Source: Candidatus Aenigmatarchaeota archaeon | Lineage (GTDB): Archaea > Aenigmatarchaeota > Aenigmatarchaeia > CG10238-14 > SCSR01 | Direction of reading: 5' to 3' | NCBI GenBank assembly: GCA_026397385.1 | Contig: JAPLUY010000005.1 | Span: 1 to 36,813 of the forward strand | Length of the DNA stretch: 36,813 nucleotides | Shown here: positions 1,713 through 7,540 of the stretch, piece after piece | Numbering within the stretch: position 1 is the stretch's first letter | Layout: each line of letters opens with the position of its first letter | The notes under the pieces: model-generated | Database searches by the model: none | The model's input: only the letters and a program-made list of their open reading frames with translations | Told to the model about the DNA's origin: nothing | Position numbers and translations under genes: made by a program

Positions 1713-1789
1713 GGGAAAAATATATTATTAGAAAAATGCAATAAATTATTAGAAGTCGAAAAAATAAAGGATTTATTTGGTGGCAACAA

Positions 1790-2125
1790 ATGAAACAAAA
1801 AAAATCAGCAATTCAAAATTTTTTAAAAAATAAATCGGAGTGTGAACCTAAAATTGTCAACATCGTTGCAACTGGCAATTTTTCGAAAAGACTTAATATT
1901 AATTCACTAGCAAGAAATCTGGATGTAGAAGAAAAAATATATGACCCTGAGACGTATCCAGCTTTACTTGTAAAAGTAGGAAAAAATAAAAAACACGTGA
2001 CCCTATATTCAAGTGGTAAATACATTATTGTAGGAGTGACGTCTAAAAAAGAATTATTTTTAGTATACAAAGAAATAGTAAAAAAATTAAAGAAAGCCGG
2101 AGCATTAAACTCCAATTTTCAATGA
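1790..2125 (+). CDS. Single-repeat TBP-like protein (half-TBP, 111 aa)
   Basis: KIVNIVATGNFSKRLNINSLARNLDVEEKIYDPETYPALLVKVGKNKKHVTLYSSGKYIIVGVTSKKELFLVYKEIVKKLKKAGAL aligns end to end with repeat 2 of the TBP at 6944-7540 (VENIVASAKLDGTLDLDKIAFNLDNSEYEPEQFPGLVYRMKDPKVAFLLFGSGKVICAGARNVKDIGIAVARVSKKLKEIGAI). Confidence 0.75.
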   Translation: MKQKKSAIQNFLKNKSECEPKIVNIVATGNFSKRLNINSLARNLDVEEKIYDPETYPALLVKVGKNKKHVTLYSSGKYIIVGVTSKKELFLVYKEIVKKLKKAGALNSNFQ

Positions 2126-2313
2126 TGATAAATAAAAATTAAATATGTAATAGAAAATTTTCAGAATGAAGGTCGTGAAACGGGTACATTTCAATTGGTG
2201 TATGTGTTTTAATTAAGAACTTTTTTAGAAGTATGAAAAGTTATGCGGGAGGAGGTTATTAATCTCAGAGGGTTAAGATTATCATAAAACATCACTTAAA
2301 GAAGGTATTACAA

Positions 2314-4095
2314 ATGAATGAAGATATCCACGATTCTATTTTTACGAAAAACATACAAAGAGGACTAGATAAAAAAATCATTAAAGTAGAAAATGATGGT
2401 TCTAAAATAATTTATTATTGCAAGAGAAATTACTCAACCTCTTTTAAAAATCCGGAAGAAAGAGTCAGAGCTTCTTATTTTTGTGAGCTTGTTATAGATT
2501 ACGATTATCAGCCAAAAAATATAGATATTGAGGTTACGGTTCCTAGAAGGACGCCGGAAGACAGGGCAGATATTGTTGTTTATGATGAGGACGGTGCAGA
2601 ATATCTTGTTGTTGAATGCAAAAAAGACGGAATAACTGATGCTGAATTTAAACAGGCAATTGAACAAGTTTTTGGAAATGCAAATAGCCTAAGGGCAAAG
2701 TTTGCCTCTGTCATTGCAGGTATTACTAAAACTGCTTTTGATGTTTCAGGGTTCAAACCAAATGAAAGAGAAAAAAATGTTATTTCCGACATTCCTAAAA
2801 AATATGGAAAAACACCAAAATACAAATTCGTCAAAGGATACCCATACAAAGAATTAAAGGAAGTCTCTAGGGAGGAATTAATAAGAGCATTGGAAAAATC
2901 ACATGATACGGTTTGGCAAGGTGGAAAATTAGCGCCTACTACCGCTTTTGACGAAGTTTCTAAATTACTTTTTTGTAAATTAAGAGATGAAAAAATAACA
3001 AAGAAAGGCGAAGCTTACAGTTTTCAGATAGGAACTCATGAATCTTCGGAAGAAATTTTTAAGAGGATAGATGTAATTTATCAGAAAGCAAAGGCTGAAG
3101 ACTCAGAAGTCTTTAAGGAAGATATAAAATTAGAACCAAGAGTAGTTTATAGTGTTGTTGAACATTTGCAGGAATTAGCAATAGGCAAGATAGATTTAGA
3201 TACAAAGGGTGTTGCGTTTGAGCGATTTATGGAAGACTTTTTTAAGGGCAAGATGGGACAATTTTTTACACCGAGAGAAATAATAAACTTCTGCGTTGAA
3301 ATTATGAACCCGGAAAGAAGCGATTTAGTTATAGATCCCGCTTGCGGGTCTGGTGGTTTTTTGCTTAACGCTCTTGATAAAGTTAGAAAATTTTCAGAAT
3401 TGAATTACGATGAAATGGAAGCGTGGGAAAATTGGCATAAGTTTGCTATGAATAATCTTTATGGAATTGAAATAAATGATCAAATTGCAAGAGTTTGTAA
3501 GATGAATATGATAATTCATGATGATGGACACACAAATATTATCAGCACAGATTCATTGAAAAATATTGATGAAATCACAAAAATCCACAAAGGATTTAAG
3601 AAAGCTCAATTTGACATTCTTTTAACAAATCCCCCGTTTGGAGCAATTGTAAAATCTACAGAAAAAGATTATTTGGACAAATATGAATTGGGTAAAGATA
3701 AACAAAACCAAAAAACAGAGATTTTATTCATAGAAAGATGTTTGGATTTCCTAAAGCCAAATGGAAAAATGGCGATTGTTTTACCGGATGGAATTTTAAC
3801 AAATTCCTCTTTACAATATGTTAGAGATTTCTTGATAAAAAAGTCGCAGATTTTGGCAATTGTTAGTTTACCGCAATTTGCGTTTACACATTTCGGAGCG
3901 GGGGTCAAATCCTCTCTTATTTTTGTAAGAAAGAAAAAAGAAGAAGAAACAAACAACTGTCCTATTTTTATGGCGATCGCTGAACACATCGGTTACGATG
4001 CAACGGGAAGGAAAGATGCGATCAACGACTTAAATAAAATTTATGACGAATATAAAAAATTCGAGAAGGATCCAAAGTCTTACAAGGGAGTTTAA
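2314..4095 (+). CDS. hsdM: Fused restriction-modification protein: N-terminal HSDR_N-like PD-(D/E)XK nuclease plus HsdM-type N6-adenine methyltransferase
   Basis: Nuclease signature 'RADIVVYDEDGAEYLVVECKK'; MTase motif I 'VIDPACGSGGFLLNAL', motif IV 'ILLTNPPFG', and 'GQFFTPREI' region. Confidence 0.88.
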   Translation: MNEDIHDSIFTKNIQRGLDKKIIKVENDGSKIIYYCKRNYSTSFKNPEERVRASYFCELVIDYDYQPKNIDIEVTVPRRTPEDRADIVVYDEDGAEYLVVECKKDGITDAEFKQAIEQVFGNANSLRAKFASVIAGITKTAFDVSGFKPNEREKNVISDIPKKYGKTPKYKFVKGYPYKELKEVSREELIRALEKSHDTVWQGGKLAPTTAFDEVSKLLFCKLRDEKITKKGEAYSFQIGTHESSEEIFKRIDVIYQKAKAEDSEVFKEDIKLEPRVVYSVVEHLQELAIGKIDLDTKGVAFERFMEDFFKGKMGQFFTPREIINFCVEIMNPERSDLVIDPACGSGGFLLNALDKVRKFSELNYDEMEAWENWHKFAMNNLYGIEINDQIARVCKMNMIIHDDGHTNIISTDSLKNIDEITKIHKGFKKAQFDILLTNPPFGAIVKSTEKDYLDKYELGKDKQNQKTEILFIERCLDFLKPNGKMAIVLPDGILTNSSLQYVRDFLIKKSQILAIVSLPQFAFTHFGAGVKSSLIFVRKKKEEETNNCPIFMAIAEHIGYDATGRKDAINDLNKIYDEYKKFEKDPKSYKGV

Positions 4096-4096
4096 G

Positions 4097-5479
4097 ATGG
4101 AATGCTTTACTATCCTTGCTGATGAAATTGATCAAAGGAGATTAGATCCTTACTATCATTCTAAAATTTTTAAAGATAATGAAAAAATAATAAGAAACTC
4201 TAAATTTGAAGTAAAACTGTTGAAGGATGTTTCTAAAAAAATAGTTGACGGTCCTTTCGGTAGTCAACTAAAAGTAGAGGAATATGTTGAAAAAGGAATC
4301 CCACTAATCAGAGTCAAAGATGTTAAAGATCAAGAATTACTTGAAGATAATTTTGTATACATTTCTAAAGAAAAACAAGAACAACTAAAGAGAAGTAAAG
4401 TACTTCCAGGAGATGTACTTTTAACTAAGGCGGGTTCTATTGGAAATGCATGTGTTTTTCCAAAACACTTAAGAGAAGCGAACATAACTTCTCACCTGGC
4501 AAAGATAGAAGTAAACAATGTTGTATACCCAGAATATTTATGTAAATATTTAAACACAAAATATGGCAGATTACAAATATTTAGAGAAGGAAATAAAACT
4601 ACACGACCGGAGCTAAATATTTCCGAAGTTTCCTCCATACTTGTTATAGTCCCTCCATTGGGAAAACAGGAAAAAATAGTTCAATTGATGGATAAATCAT
4701 ATTTTCAAAAGAGGGAAAAAAAACTAGAAGCCCAGAATTTACTTGATTCATTAAATGATTATGTTCTTGGAGAATTGGGAATAGTCCCACTCAAATTAAA
4801 GGATAAAATGATTTATGTTGTTAATTATGATACTGTTAAAAATAATAGATTAGATGCTTACTATTATCAGCCTAAATTTGAAGAAGTGGAAAATATAATT
4901 AAGAACTGTGGAGTTGAGGTTAAAAAGTTAAAAGAATGTTTTGATGGTGAGTTAGTCAAAGGGATATTGCCCACCGATAAAGAAAAAGAAGGTGGTGCAA
5001 AAGTTTTACAGATTAAAAACATTCTTAGAAACGGATTGATAAATACTTCTAAATATGTTACTGCCAAAAATATCTTTGGGTCAGAACATAAGATAAAAAA
5101 GGGAGAAGTGATACTAGTCATTACTGGGGCAACAATTGGTAAAGTTGGTTTATGGTATTCTAATGAAGATTTTTATCTTGGTGGGGATATGGTAAAATTT
5201 TTTACAAGTGACAATGTTGATCCATACTATATTCAAGCCTTCTTATTGTCCCAATTAGGGCAATATCAATTATTGAGACATATTACGGGAGCGACAAACA
5301 AACATTTGTCTCCTGATGATATTGAGAAAATTAAAATTCCTATTCCATCGTTTAGTGTTCAAAACAAAATTGGCGAAGAATTTAAAAAACGAATGCAAAA
5401 AGCTGAACAATTGAAAAATGAAGCTAAAGAAGATTTTGAAAAAACTAAACAAGAAGTTGAAAAGATGATTCTAGGTTAG
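4097..5479 (+). CDS. hsdS: Type I-like specificity subunit with two target recognition domains
   Basis: ATG 1 nt after the hsdM stop. Two TRD/conserved-region units (DGPFGSQLKVEEY...PGDVLLTKAGSIGNACVF and KGILPTDKEKEGG...KGEVILVITGATIGKVGLW). The longer ORF start at 4043 overlaps hsdM and is less likely. Confidence 0.85.
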   Translation: MECFTILADEIDQRRLDPYYHSKIFKDNEKIIRNSKFEVKLLKDVSKKIVDGPFGSQLKVEEYVEKGIPLIRVKDVKDQELLEDNFVYISKEKQEQLKRSKVLPGDVLLTKAGSIGNACVFPKHLREANITSHLAKIEVNNVVYPEYLCKYLNTKYGRLQIFREGNKTTRPELNISEVSSILVIVPPLGKQEKIVQLMDKSYFQKREKKLEAQNLLDSLNDYVLGELGIVPLKLKDKMIYVVNYDTVKNNRLDAYYYQPKFEEVENIIKNCGVEVKKLKECFDGELVKGILPTDKEKEGGAKVLQIKNILRNGLINTSKYVTAKNIFGSEHKIKKGEVILVITGATIGKVGLWYSNEDFYLGGDMVKFFTSDNVDPYYIQAFLLSQLGQYQLLRHITGATNKHLSPDDIEKIKIPIPSFSVQNKIGEEFKKRMQKAEQLKNEAKEDFEKTKQEVEKMILG

Positions 5480-5536
5480 AAAAATTGATTATATATATTT
5501 TCAAATATTATTTTCTGGGGATTAACTAAATTAACA

Positions 5537-5833
5537 TTAAATAATTCCTGAAAACCCAAGTTCTTTGAGTTCCTCTAGTCTTTTTTTCTTATCTATGTTA
5601 TTCGTCTGAGTACCTTCTCTCCAAGCGCGTTCTATCTCCTTCGCGGACTTGCCACAGTTCGGACATTTATCTGATAAAAGTTCGTGCCCCTCTGCCTTTT
5701 TGTGCCATCTAGTGTTCTTGGCAATTGCACTTCTGCTGATGCTAGCCGCAGTATGACTAGGCCACCAGAGAATCTCCAGAACCTCATGCTCGCAGAAAGG
5801 ACACATTTCTTTGAGTTTCTGATGTGGATCCAT
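5537..5833 (-). CDS. Small double CxxC zinc-ribbon protein
   Basis: 98 aa with CPFC...CPNC pairs and His between them. Confidence 0.6.
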   Translation of the reverse strand: MDPHQKLKEMCPFCEHEVLEILWWPSHTAASISRSAIAKNTRWHKKAEGHELLSDKCPNCGKSAKEIERAWREGTQTNNIDKKKRLEELKELGFSGII

Positions 5834-5958
5834 GATTTAATAATGTCTAGGAGTTAATTAAAAAGAATATTAAAAGTCTGGCTTTGCATATTCTGTCAAC
5901 AAGCCATGGTGACGAGAAATTTTGTCGCACGCGGGTGATTCATTTTTAAAGACGCTAA

Positions 5959-6420
5959 TTAGCCGCTGGCTTCTGAAGCTTCCACTTCCTTTCGTATTTT
6001 TGCTATATGTTGCTTCGCTGTTTCGGGGGCTATAGTTTCTATGTGCAAATCCCCACATTTTGCACGTTCCGTTTCGTCTTCGGTTACAACAACAACGTCT
6101 AGTCCTTCAAGCTGTTTCAGCTGAGCTAGTTTGACGGTGGACTCGATCGGTGTAAGGGAAGCGGAGGGGTTGTCCTCGTGCAGTAGGCCTTTTACACACC
6201 CTATATACCAGTGCTTTTCCGGATAAGCCGCAAAAAGACTGTTCAGCACGGACGACGTAACGCAAAAGTTAAGTTCCATCTTGTGGCATTTGCAATCCAT
6301 CACTTCTTTGAGCATGGCTTTAGATGGTGTTTCCACGTAATGCTTCTCTATGGATTTGTTAAGCGCGGAAAACCCGAAAATGAACACTTGAAAATCGTCT
6401 CGTACGTGCTCTTCAAACAT
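5959..6420 (-). CDS. Hypothetical protein, possibly PIN-like toxin
   Basis: 153 aa ORF. Pattern VFIFGFSALNKS...SSVLNSLFAA...LDVVVVTEDETERAKCGDLHIETIAPE is loosely reminiscent of PIN-domain C-termini; preceded on the same strand by a small ORF. Confidence 0.45.
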   Translation of the reverse strand: MFEEHVRDDFQVFIFGFSALNKSIEKHYVETPSKAMLKEVMDCKCHKMELNFCVTSSVLNSLFAAYPEKHWYIGCVKGLLHEDNPSASLTPIESTVKLAQLKQLEGLDVVVVTEDETERAKCGDLHIETIAPETAKQHIAKIRKEVEASEASG

Positions 6421-6943: not shown

Positions 6944-7540
6944 CTAAGCCTTCGTCGCGGGCTTCGGCTTGATTATCGCGCCTATTTCCTTGAGCTTCTT
7001 AGAGACGCGCGCGACTGCGATTCCGATGTCCTTCACGTTGCGTGCGCCTGCGCAGATGACCTTGCCGCTGCCGAACAGCAGGAACGCGACCTTCGGGTCC
7101 TTCATGCGGTAGACGAGGCCAGGGAACTGCTCGGGCTCGTACTCTGAGTTGTCCAGGTTGAACGCGATCTTGTCGAGGTCCAGCGTACCATCGAGCTTGG
7201 CCGAGGCCACGATGTTCTCGACCTGCACCTTATAGTCCTTGGGCAGCTTCACGCCCGACTTGGTGATGAGTTCGGCCACGCGCTCGAAGACGAGCTTGAC
7301 GTCGGATATGTTGCGGCAGCCCGTGCAGACGACCTTCCCGCTGCCGAAGATCAAGGCAGCGGCCTTCGGCTCCTTCATGCGGTAGACCACGCCCGGAAAA
7401 CGCTCCGGCTCGTACTCCATCCCGCCCGTCTTTACCAGCCTTTCCAGCTGTATGCGTACGCCAAACGTGGCGGTAGCGACCGTGTTCTCCACGTGAATCC
7501 CGAACTCCTTAGAGGCTGTCAATAGAAAACGACCTAGCAT
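6944..7540 (-). CDS. tbp: TATA-box-binding protein (two repeats)
   Basis: Two tandem TBP repeats: IHVENTVATATFG...RFPGVVYRMKEPKAAALIFGSGKVVCTG and VQVENIVASAKL...QFPGLVYRMKDPKVAFLLFGSGKVICAG. Confidence 0.97.
   Translation of the reverse strand: MLGRFLLTASKEFGIHVENTVATATFGVRIQLERLVKTGGMEYEPERFPGVVYRMKEPKAAALIFGSGKVVCTGCRNISDVKLVFERVAELITKSGVKLPKDYKVQVENIVASAKLDGTLDLDKIAFNLDNSEYEPEQFPGLVYRMKDPKVAFLLFGSGKVICAGARNVKDIGIAVARVSKKLKEIGAIIKPKPATKA

Follow-up and report, generated by a model that had tools for sequence, protein, structure and literature searches.

A stand-alone single-lobe TBP-family protein with tyrosine at both DNA-kinking positions beside restriction-modification genes in Archaea

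Introduction

Near the start of the window, the whole stretch of archaeal DNA analysed here (36,813 nucleotides), lies an AT-rich island (1713–5530, the right boundary being approximate) that carries three genes, all on the forward strand. The first (1790–2125) has an ATG start, ends with a stop at 2125 and encodes a stand-alone single lobe of the TATA-binding protein (TBP) of 111 amino acids, which we term half-TBP. It is followed by a gene (2314–4095) for a fused restriction-modification (RM) subunit of 593 amino acids, which joins an HSDR_N_2 domain to an N6 adenine methyltransferase (MTase), and by a gene (4043–5479) for a type I-like specificity (S) subunit of 478 amino acids with two target-recognition domains, whose annotated start (4043) overlaps the RM gene end (4095). 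Outside this system, about 4.8 kb from half-TBP and in keeping with the 5 kb originally estimated, the window holds a canonical two-lobe TBP of the host (6944–7540, reverse strand), identified by Pfam TBP and a genome search and used here for comparison.

TBP normally starts transcription, and its canonical form has two lobes in one chain that make up a saddle, with the first strand occupying the centre; a pair of intercalating phenylalanines in each lobe kinks the DNA. In bacteria, RM systems use helix-turn-helix (HTH) controller proteins (C-proteins) to put off restriction after reaching a new host. How archaeal RM and BREX systems do this is, to our knowledge, largely unknown. Monopartite proteins in which a single TBP domain is the whole protein, as it is in half-TBP, were reportedly described from some Archaea by Brindefalk et al. 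in 2013; we know of no RM or BREX link, and of no subfamily with the tyrosine signature described below (the 'Tyr-lobe'), in that work. In the literature searched, which was covered in part and does not amount to proof of novelty, we found neither a link of TBP with RM or BREX nor the Tyr-lobe signature, and a survey of archaeal RM systems leaves TBP and TATA unmentioned in its main text (PMC10609329). A Tyr-lobe branch of TBPs beside defence genes has probably gone unremarked, single-domain archaeal TBPs having already been reported.

Results

Pfam TBP matches the 111-residue protein once, along profile positions 2–84 of 85 (E=2.8e-17) and far above the curated cut-off, and in a PDB sequence search every match was a TBP, down to E=5e-19. 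An AlphaFold2 model of the monomer, built from an alignment of host and fetched TBP lobes, has a mean pLDDT of 85.2 (about 87–96 across the domain) and the strand-helix-four strands-helix topology of a TBP lobe. When this model was searched with Foldseek, 44 matches were returned at E<=0.001, TBP lobes without exception and with TM values of about 0.7 by query length, the first non-TBP fold appearing at E=0.095. Neither the family searches nor Foldseek gave an HTH family match, the fold being that of TBP and not of an XRE-type HTH. The full-domain match and the lobe fold place half-TBP in the TBP-domain superfamily, and the original prediction of a stand-alone single TBP repeat, together with the half-saddle fold that it proposed to look for, is borne out by the Pfam, PDB and AlphaFold2/Foldseek comparisons alike.

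It had also been proposed that both DNA-kinking phenylalanines are changed to tyrosine, and this is indeed the case (ETYPALL, TLYSSGK), the two residues forming part of the Tyr-lobe signature YDPETYPALLVKV ... KHVTLYSSGKYIIVG. In an alignment of lobes, the canonical ones have Phe at the first position (F1) in 43/43 cases and at the second (F2) in 41/43; in the same comparison both are Tyr in 8/8 half-TBPs. Half-TBP is like archaeal two-lobe TBP (PF00352) in its fold, its sequence family and the core motifs NIV, (D/E)PE and SGK, but departs from it in having one lobe per chain, in lacking the intercalating Phe pair in favour of Tyr at both positions, in GKY and HVT replacing canonical residues, and in its RM company. 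Judged by its Pfam match, its predicted fold, its eight one-lobe orthologues and their dN/dS (see below), the gene encodes a functional one-lobe TBP-family protein.

The host genome (G000; 675 kb, 78% complete) contains two ordinary two-lobe TBPs, the one in the window and a second on another contig. The likeness to 'repeat 2' that was originally claimed stands in pairwise comparison, where half-TBP pairs best within its own genome with the C-lobe (41.9 vs 30.0 bits, window TBP), but not in a tree of lobes, which puts it with Tyr-type N-lobes and not with C-lobes. Since a grouping of half-TBP with C-lobes gave p=0.31 in an AU test once the signature columns were removed, an origin from repeat 2 is not established.

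The N-terminal part of the 593-residue protein matches Pfam HSDR_N_2 (2.3e-16) and has an intact PD-(D/E)XK motif (D86...E-C-K), its MTase part matches Pfam N6_Mtase (3.6e-47) and has the motifs DPACGSGGF and NPPF, and its best PDB match is RM.BsaXI (2.1e-45). The S subunit matches Pfam Methylase_S in two stretches (6e-22) and is called Specificity_I by PADLOC. The hsdM and hsdS neighbours named in the original prediction are present in the sense that RM genes adjoin half-TBP, but these are a fused nuclease and N6-MTase plus S and not the classical pair. Judging from its domains and motifs, the window RM appears to be a complete system of type IIB style, one that has no separate HsdR. As in BsaXI and BcgI, nuclease and N6-MTase are fused and the S subunit is separate, although the N-terminal domain differs, being matched as HSDR_N_2, and the likeness is one of sequence, two-sided cleavage being a type IIB trait. 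In NCBIfam the MTase and S genes came closest to MAD2 and MAD5; membership of MADS was rejected, as both scores lie under the curated cut-offs (298.6 vs 720 and 150.1 vs 400 bits) and no other MAD gene adjoins. A related genome (G046) has an MTase 71% identical to that of the window; half-TBP was not found in this assembly, where the contig stops 117 bp upstream of the MTase and the spot at which it might lie is beyond the contig end. Separately, a genome of the same family (G003, L037) encodes a fused nuclease-MTase-S protein of 829 amino acids, 45% identical to the window MTase and close to an integrase, with no half-TBP adjoining.

The GC content of the island is 28–33%, and GC3 is 0.21 for half-TBP, 0.27 for the 593-residue gene and 0.22 for the S gene, as against 0.86 for the nearest upstream gene and 0.70–0.83 for core genes beyond 7 kb. 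Because the three genes share this composition and the flanking genes do not, they probably arrived together by horizontal acquisition. Intermediate GC3 values (0.44–0.48) are found at 5.5–6.4 kb, where two small ORFs on the reverse strand (5537–6420) mark the right edge of the island; neither has a confident family, and one has paired CxxC motifs and is zinc-ribbon-like.

Upstream of half-TBP, on the forward strand, are two copies of a direct repeat, AATATATTATTAGAA (1719–1733) and AATAAATTATTAGAA (1740–1754), which are identical at 14/15 positions and lie 21 bp, or two helical turns, apart; a 14/15 repeat was reached in 0/500 dinucleotide shuffles of the 77-bp region upstream of the gene. 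Copy 1 overlaps an AT-rich BRE/TATA-like stretch (1716–1729) and may be a promoter or operator of half-TBP, and the repeat analysis makes the pair a candidate operator. The 188-bp intergenic region before the RM gene (2126–2313), a candidate regulatory region, contained no repeat exceeding the AT-rich background. No operator common to the half-TBP and RM upstream regions of the window was found; the 8-mer TTAGAAGT that they have in common is not significant, as 428/500 shuffles share some 8-mer.

A stand-alone lobe of about 102 amino acids, 44–46% identical to the window protein, is present in 8/115 genomes of a second archaeal phylum, reached through a sequence titled 'Methanomicrobia archaeon' (L018), and these eight genomes form one group and are not eight independent events. 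The motifs NIVATG, ETYPALLVKV, HVT.Y and GKYII are invariant across the one-lobe orthologues, which makes the tyrosine replacements a family trait. Upstream of the gene a 25-bp BRE/TATA-like block (TAAAAATAAAAGCTTATATACTAGT) is invariant in all eight genomes while its flanks vary, and dN/dS among the orthologues is about 0.01–0.13, mostly 0.03–0.07. A dN/dS of about 0.05 and the invariant upstream block together indicate that the orthologues are functional genes. A canonical TBP is also present in every orthologue genome examined. There was no close relative of half-TBP among 158 genomes of the window's own phylum, and a scan of GTDB contigs with the single half-TBP sequence gave two-lobe TBPs only; several 'single' TBP matches in related genomes (G034, G032, G009, G004) turned out to be full TBPs that a contig end had truncated.

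For 7/8 orthologues, half-TBP and the hsdM gene of a complete hsdR-hsdS-hsdM operon converge, leaving a gap of 4–5 bp to the hsdM stop (families confirmed for L052); two more genomes have a contig end within hsdM, short of the place where half-TBP would be expected. One genome (G167, L055) has no hsdRSM operon and an intact, constrained half-TBP, beside which lie about 20 nt identical to the hsdM 3' end (L055 3165–3265), a relic whose 30-mer match was matched in 1/1000 shuffles. As this hsdM relic adjoins an intact half-TBP, we conclude from the sequence that the type I RM operon was deleted in G167 and half-TBP kept. Stops interrupt hsdM in another genome (G172), possibly through an assembly error, and its half-TBP is intact. 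Having been kept after operon loss in G167 and with a broken hsdM in G172, half-TBP is not strictly dependent on RM. On its other side, several orthologue genomes have a divergently transcribed PAS-kinase gene.

Outside the one-lobe family, the closest lobes are the N-lobes of two-lobe TBPs from haloarchaeal plasmids and viruses, which are annotated merely as TATA-box-binding protein or TBP C. In the plasmid proteins F2 is Tyr in 10/10 and F1 in 8/10, followed by GKYI; except in a truncated Haloquadratum copy, their C-lobe is canonical, retaining the canonical Phe and an EPEQFPGL stirrup. They are like half-TBP in having Tyr at F2, GKY/GKF in lobe 1, an RM/BREX neighbourhood and a place in a joint clade, but unlike it in being acidic haloarchaeal proteins of two lobes with a canonical C-lobe.

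The neighbourhoods of these proteins are varied. Operons of MTase, BrxHII-like helicase and TBP occur at L095, L096, L099, L110 and L111, and in several of them there is a 4-bp overlap between the TBP gene and the helicase stop; other loci have MTase-TBP (L109), MTase-HsdR-like-ORF-TBP (L093), BREX pglX-TBP-pglZ-brxL, with TBP between pglX and pglZ (L102), BREX-5 (L114), or a truncated Tyr-lobe TBP 0.9 kb from hsdM-hsdS (L094). In Halorubrum virus HRTV-9 (L115) and an IMG/VR contig (L117) a type IIG RM gene is followed by a Tyr-lobe TBP, and the TBP of Haloarcula virus HJTV-2 (L116), whose N-lobe is degenerate and lacks the Tyr, lies beside Eco29kI-type RM genes. Of the viral scans, the one that used the Tyr-lobe alignment picked up a single viral contig (IMG/VR), and those with half-TBP and with the one-lobe family alignment gave no match. 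The block upstream of the halophile MTase-helicase-TBP operons (AAAGACTATAT; stretches L118–L122) is ordinary and BRE/TATA-like, and no special promoter ahead of them was evident.

The five MTase-helicase-TBP loci each have a 63-residue ORF (annotated in 4/5), a type IIG-like MTase of about 1400 amino acids, the BrxHII-like helicase and the Tyr-lobe TBP, with 4-bp gene overlaps in most, and this gene content suggests that the plasmid operon is a compact system, so far unnamed, of BREX-like or type IIG kind that has a TBP of its own. HRTV-9 and HJTV-2, which are related haloviruses, have TBP and a restriction system at the same place, adjoining a ribonucleotide reductase gene, and the restriction types at that site differ (type IIG in the former, Eco29kI type II in the latter).

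All 12 Tyr-N-lobe TBPs examined from haloarchaeal plasmids and viruses (L093, L094, L095, L096, L099, L102, L109, L110, L111, L114, L115, L117) adjoin MTase, RM or BREX genes, whereas an RM gene lies within 5 kb of 0/10 canonical plasmid TBPs from the same searches, a difference with a Fisher p of 2.8e-6 (conservatively 2.5e-4, with similar operons merged and the odd TBP L108, whose MTase is 3.2 kb off, counted against it) in samples that are small and not independent. The search for neighbourhood association that the original prediction called for therefore shows homologues strongly tied to RM genes (7/8 one-lobe, 12/12 Tyr-N-lobe, 0/10 canonical), and the repeated RM adjacency expected of a C-protein extends over the window, the orthologues and the Tyr-N-lobe relatives.

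The lobe tree unites half-TBPs with RM-linked N-lobes in a single clade, with support of 100/98, or 90/93 without the Tyr/GKY signature columns and the longest branches; finer points of the tree are beyond resolution, there being about 100 columns and the branches being long. Common descent of half-TBPs and Tyr N-lobes is favoured by this grouping and not proved by it. Half-TBP has all the characters by which we propose to recognise the clade, namely Tyr at F2 with GKY/GKF, the grouping itself and an RM/BREX neighbour. These characters make it a member of a separate clade of TBP paralogues, the 'Tyr-lobe' clade, which in archaea and in archaeal viruses travels with genes of RM, type IIG and BREX systems.

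Discussion

We propose, at what we take to be about an even chance, that half-TBP is a transcription regulator dedicated to the linked RM or defence system, the half form acting as a homodimer. We infer dimerisation, DNA binding and regulation, with its direction, along the following lines. Two copies would form a symmetric saddle by pairing along the first strand (NIVATG), which is central in the TBP saddle, and the invariance of this strand is what such pairing would lead one to expect. The dimer would occupy AT-rich promoter DNA, tyrosine in place of phenylalanine is expected to weaken or alter the kink, and the bound protein may repress or time its own gene and the RM genes, like bacterial C-proteins. 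The two-lobe haloarchaeal relatives combine a Tyr N-lobe with a canonical C-lobe, by which TFB could still be recruited, and these proteins may be RM-specific basal factors. Half-TBP resembles the C-proteins as a small DNA-binding-type protein that adjoins RM genes and has its own promoter and putative upstream direct repeats, but those are HTH proteins and half-TBP is a TBP lobe with a putative regulatory role. A strict C-protein analogy is weakened by the half-TBP of G167, which outlives its RM operon, and by the orthologues being convergent with hsdM and not upstream of RM genes. The 71% identical MTase of G046, in whose assembly half-TBP was not found, and the lack of an operator common to the two upstream regions of the window also count against the proposal.

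The survival of half-TBP, still constrained, after RM loss in G167 keeps alive another reading, that it is a general or accessory regulator of the cell, acting with TFB or the host TBP at selected promoters, and that it is linked to RM through sharing a mobile or defence locus and not through function. The divergent PAS-kinase neighbour in several orthologue genomes and the canonical TBP in each genome examined agree with this; yet we find it unlikely, as the linkage turns up repeatedly with unrelated kinds of RM system (type I, type IIB-like, type IIG and BREX) across phyla and in viruses, is seen for none of the ten canonical TBPs, and in the window, which has no PAS-kinase neighbour, leaves RM genes as the only island companions of half-TBP. 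The same diversity of partners, whose architectures are not homologous (type I HsdRSM, type IIB-like, type IIG, BREX), makes it distinctly improbable that half-TBP serves structurally within the restriction or BREX machinery, for example as a DNA-bending or minor-groove-reading subunit of an MTase/S/helicase complex. The 4-bp TBP/helicase overlap in the plasmid operons and the TBP gene between pglX and pglZ would suit a co-produced subunit, but the one-lobe orthologues are on the opposite strand with their own conserved promoter, and the C-lobe of the two-lobe forms has the canonical Phe and EPEQFPGL stirrup.

That half-TBP is an immunity decoy or effector, occupying TATA elements and hindering viral or host transcription when restriction fails, we consider very unlikely: a TBP-like protein with modified DNA-contact residues inside defence loci might act in this way, and two haloviruses and one viral contig carry a related gene beside their own RM genes, but such viral copies suggest service to the RM system and not defence against virus transcription, and half-TBP has no toxin-like signature. 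Hardly credible at all is a decaying TBP fragment, a duplicate minus one lobe. Truncation does occur, in the Haloquadratum ORF of 105 amino acids that ends just inside lobe 2, but the one-lobe length is conserved in two phyla, the motifs are invariant and the promoter is conserved, and a pseudogene or fragment reading of half-TBP is ruled out by the dN/dS of about 0.05 and by the orthologues in another phylum.

The dedicated regulator that we propose can be extended to a wider and more tentative idea, against which we put the chances somewhat higher than in its favour: archaeal RM, type IIG and BREX systems may carry a dedicated Tyr-lobe TBP, a basal factor turned defence controller, whose simplest form would be a single lobe dimerising into a symmetric TBP, the living counterpart of the inferred pre-duplication TBP. 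If this is true, a TBP clade that moves with RM and BREX, also on plasmids and in viruses, would amount to a new mode of defence regulation, and the RM-linked clade would be one reason for the many TBP paralogues in archaea. Moreover, with a one-lobe TBP that occurs in nature and is conserved, the question of a symmetric TBP before duplication can be put directly to the test on a protein of 100 residues.

Some further pieces of TBP came to light in the searches. The truncated Haloquadratum walsbyi PL100 copy (L094 4995–5312) is annotated as a 'hypothetical protein' and ends in VEISNIVAS followed by the stop. In G034, C18:11709–11930 (L022), preceded by a tRNA-like stretch and followed by an Sm-like gene, is a TBP-lobe remnant or frameshifted extra TBP, possibly a damaged copy. 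A plasmid of Halorussus lipolyticus (L112, about 6001–6174) has an unannotated Tyr-lobe TBP piece of 58 amino acids, 64% identical to the DL1 lobe, which is probably a remnant; an N-6 DNA methylase and a transposase lie about 1 kb away.
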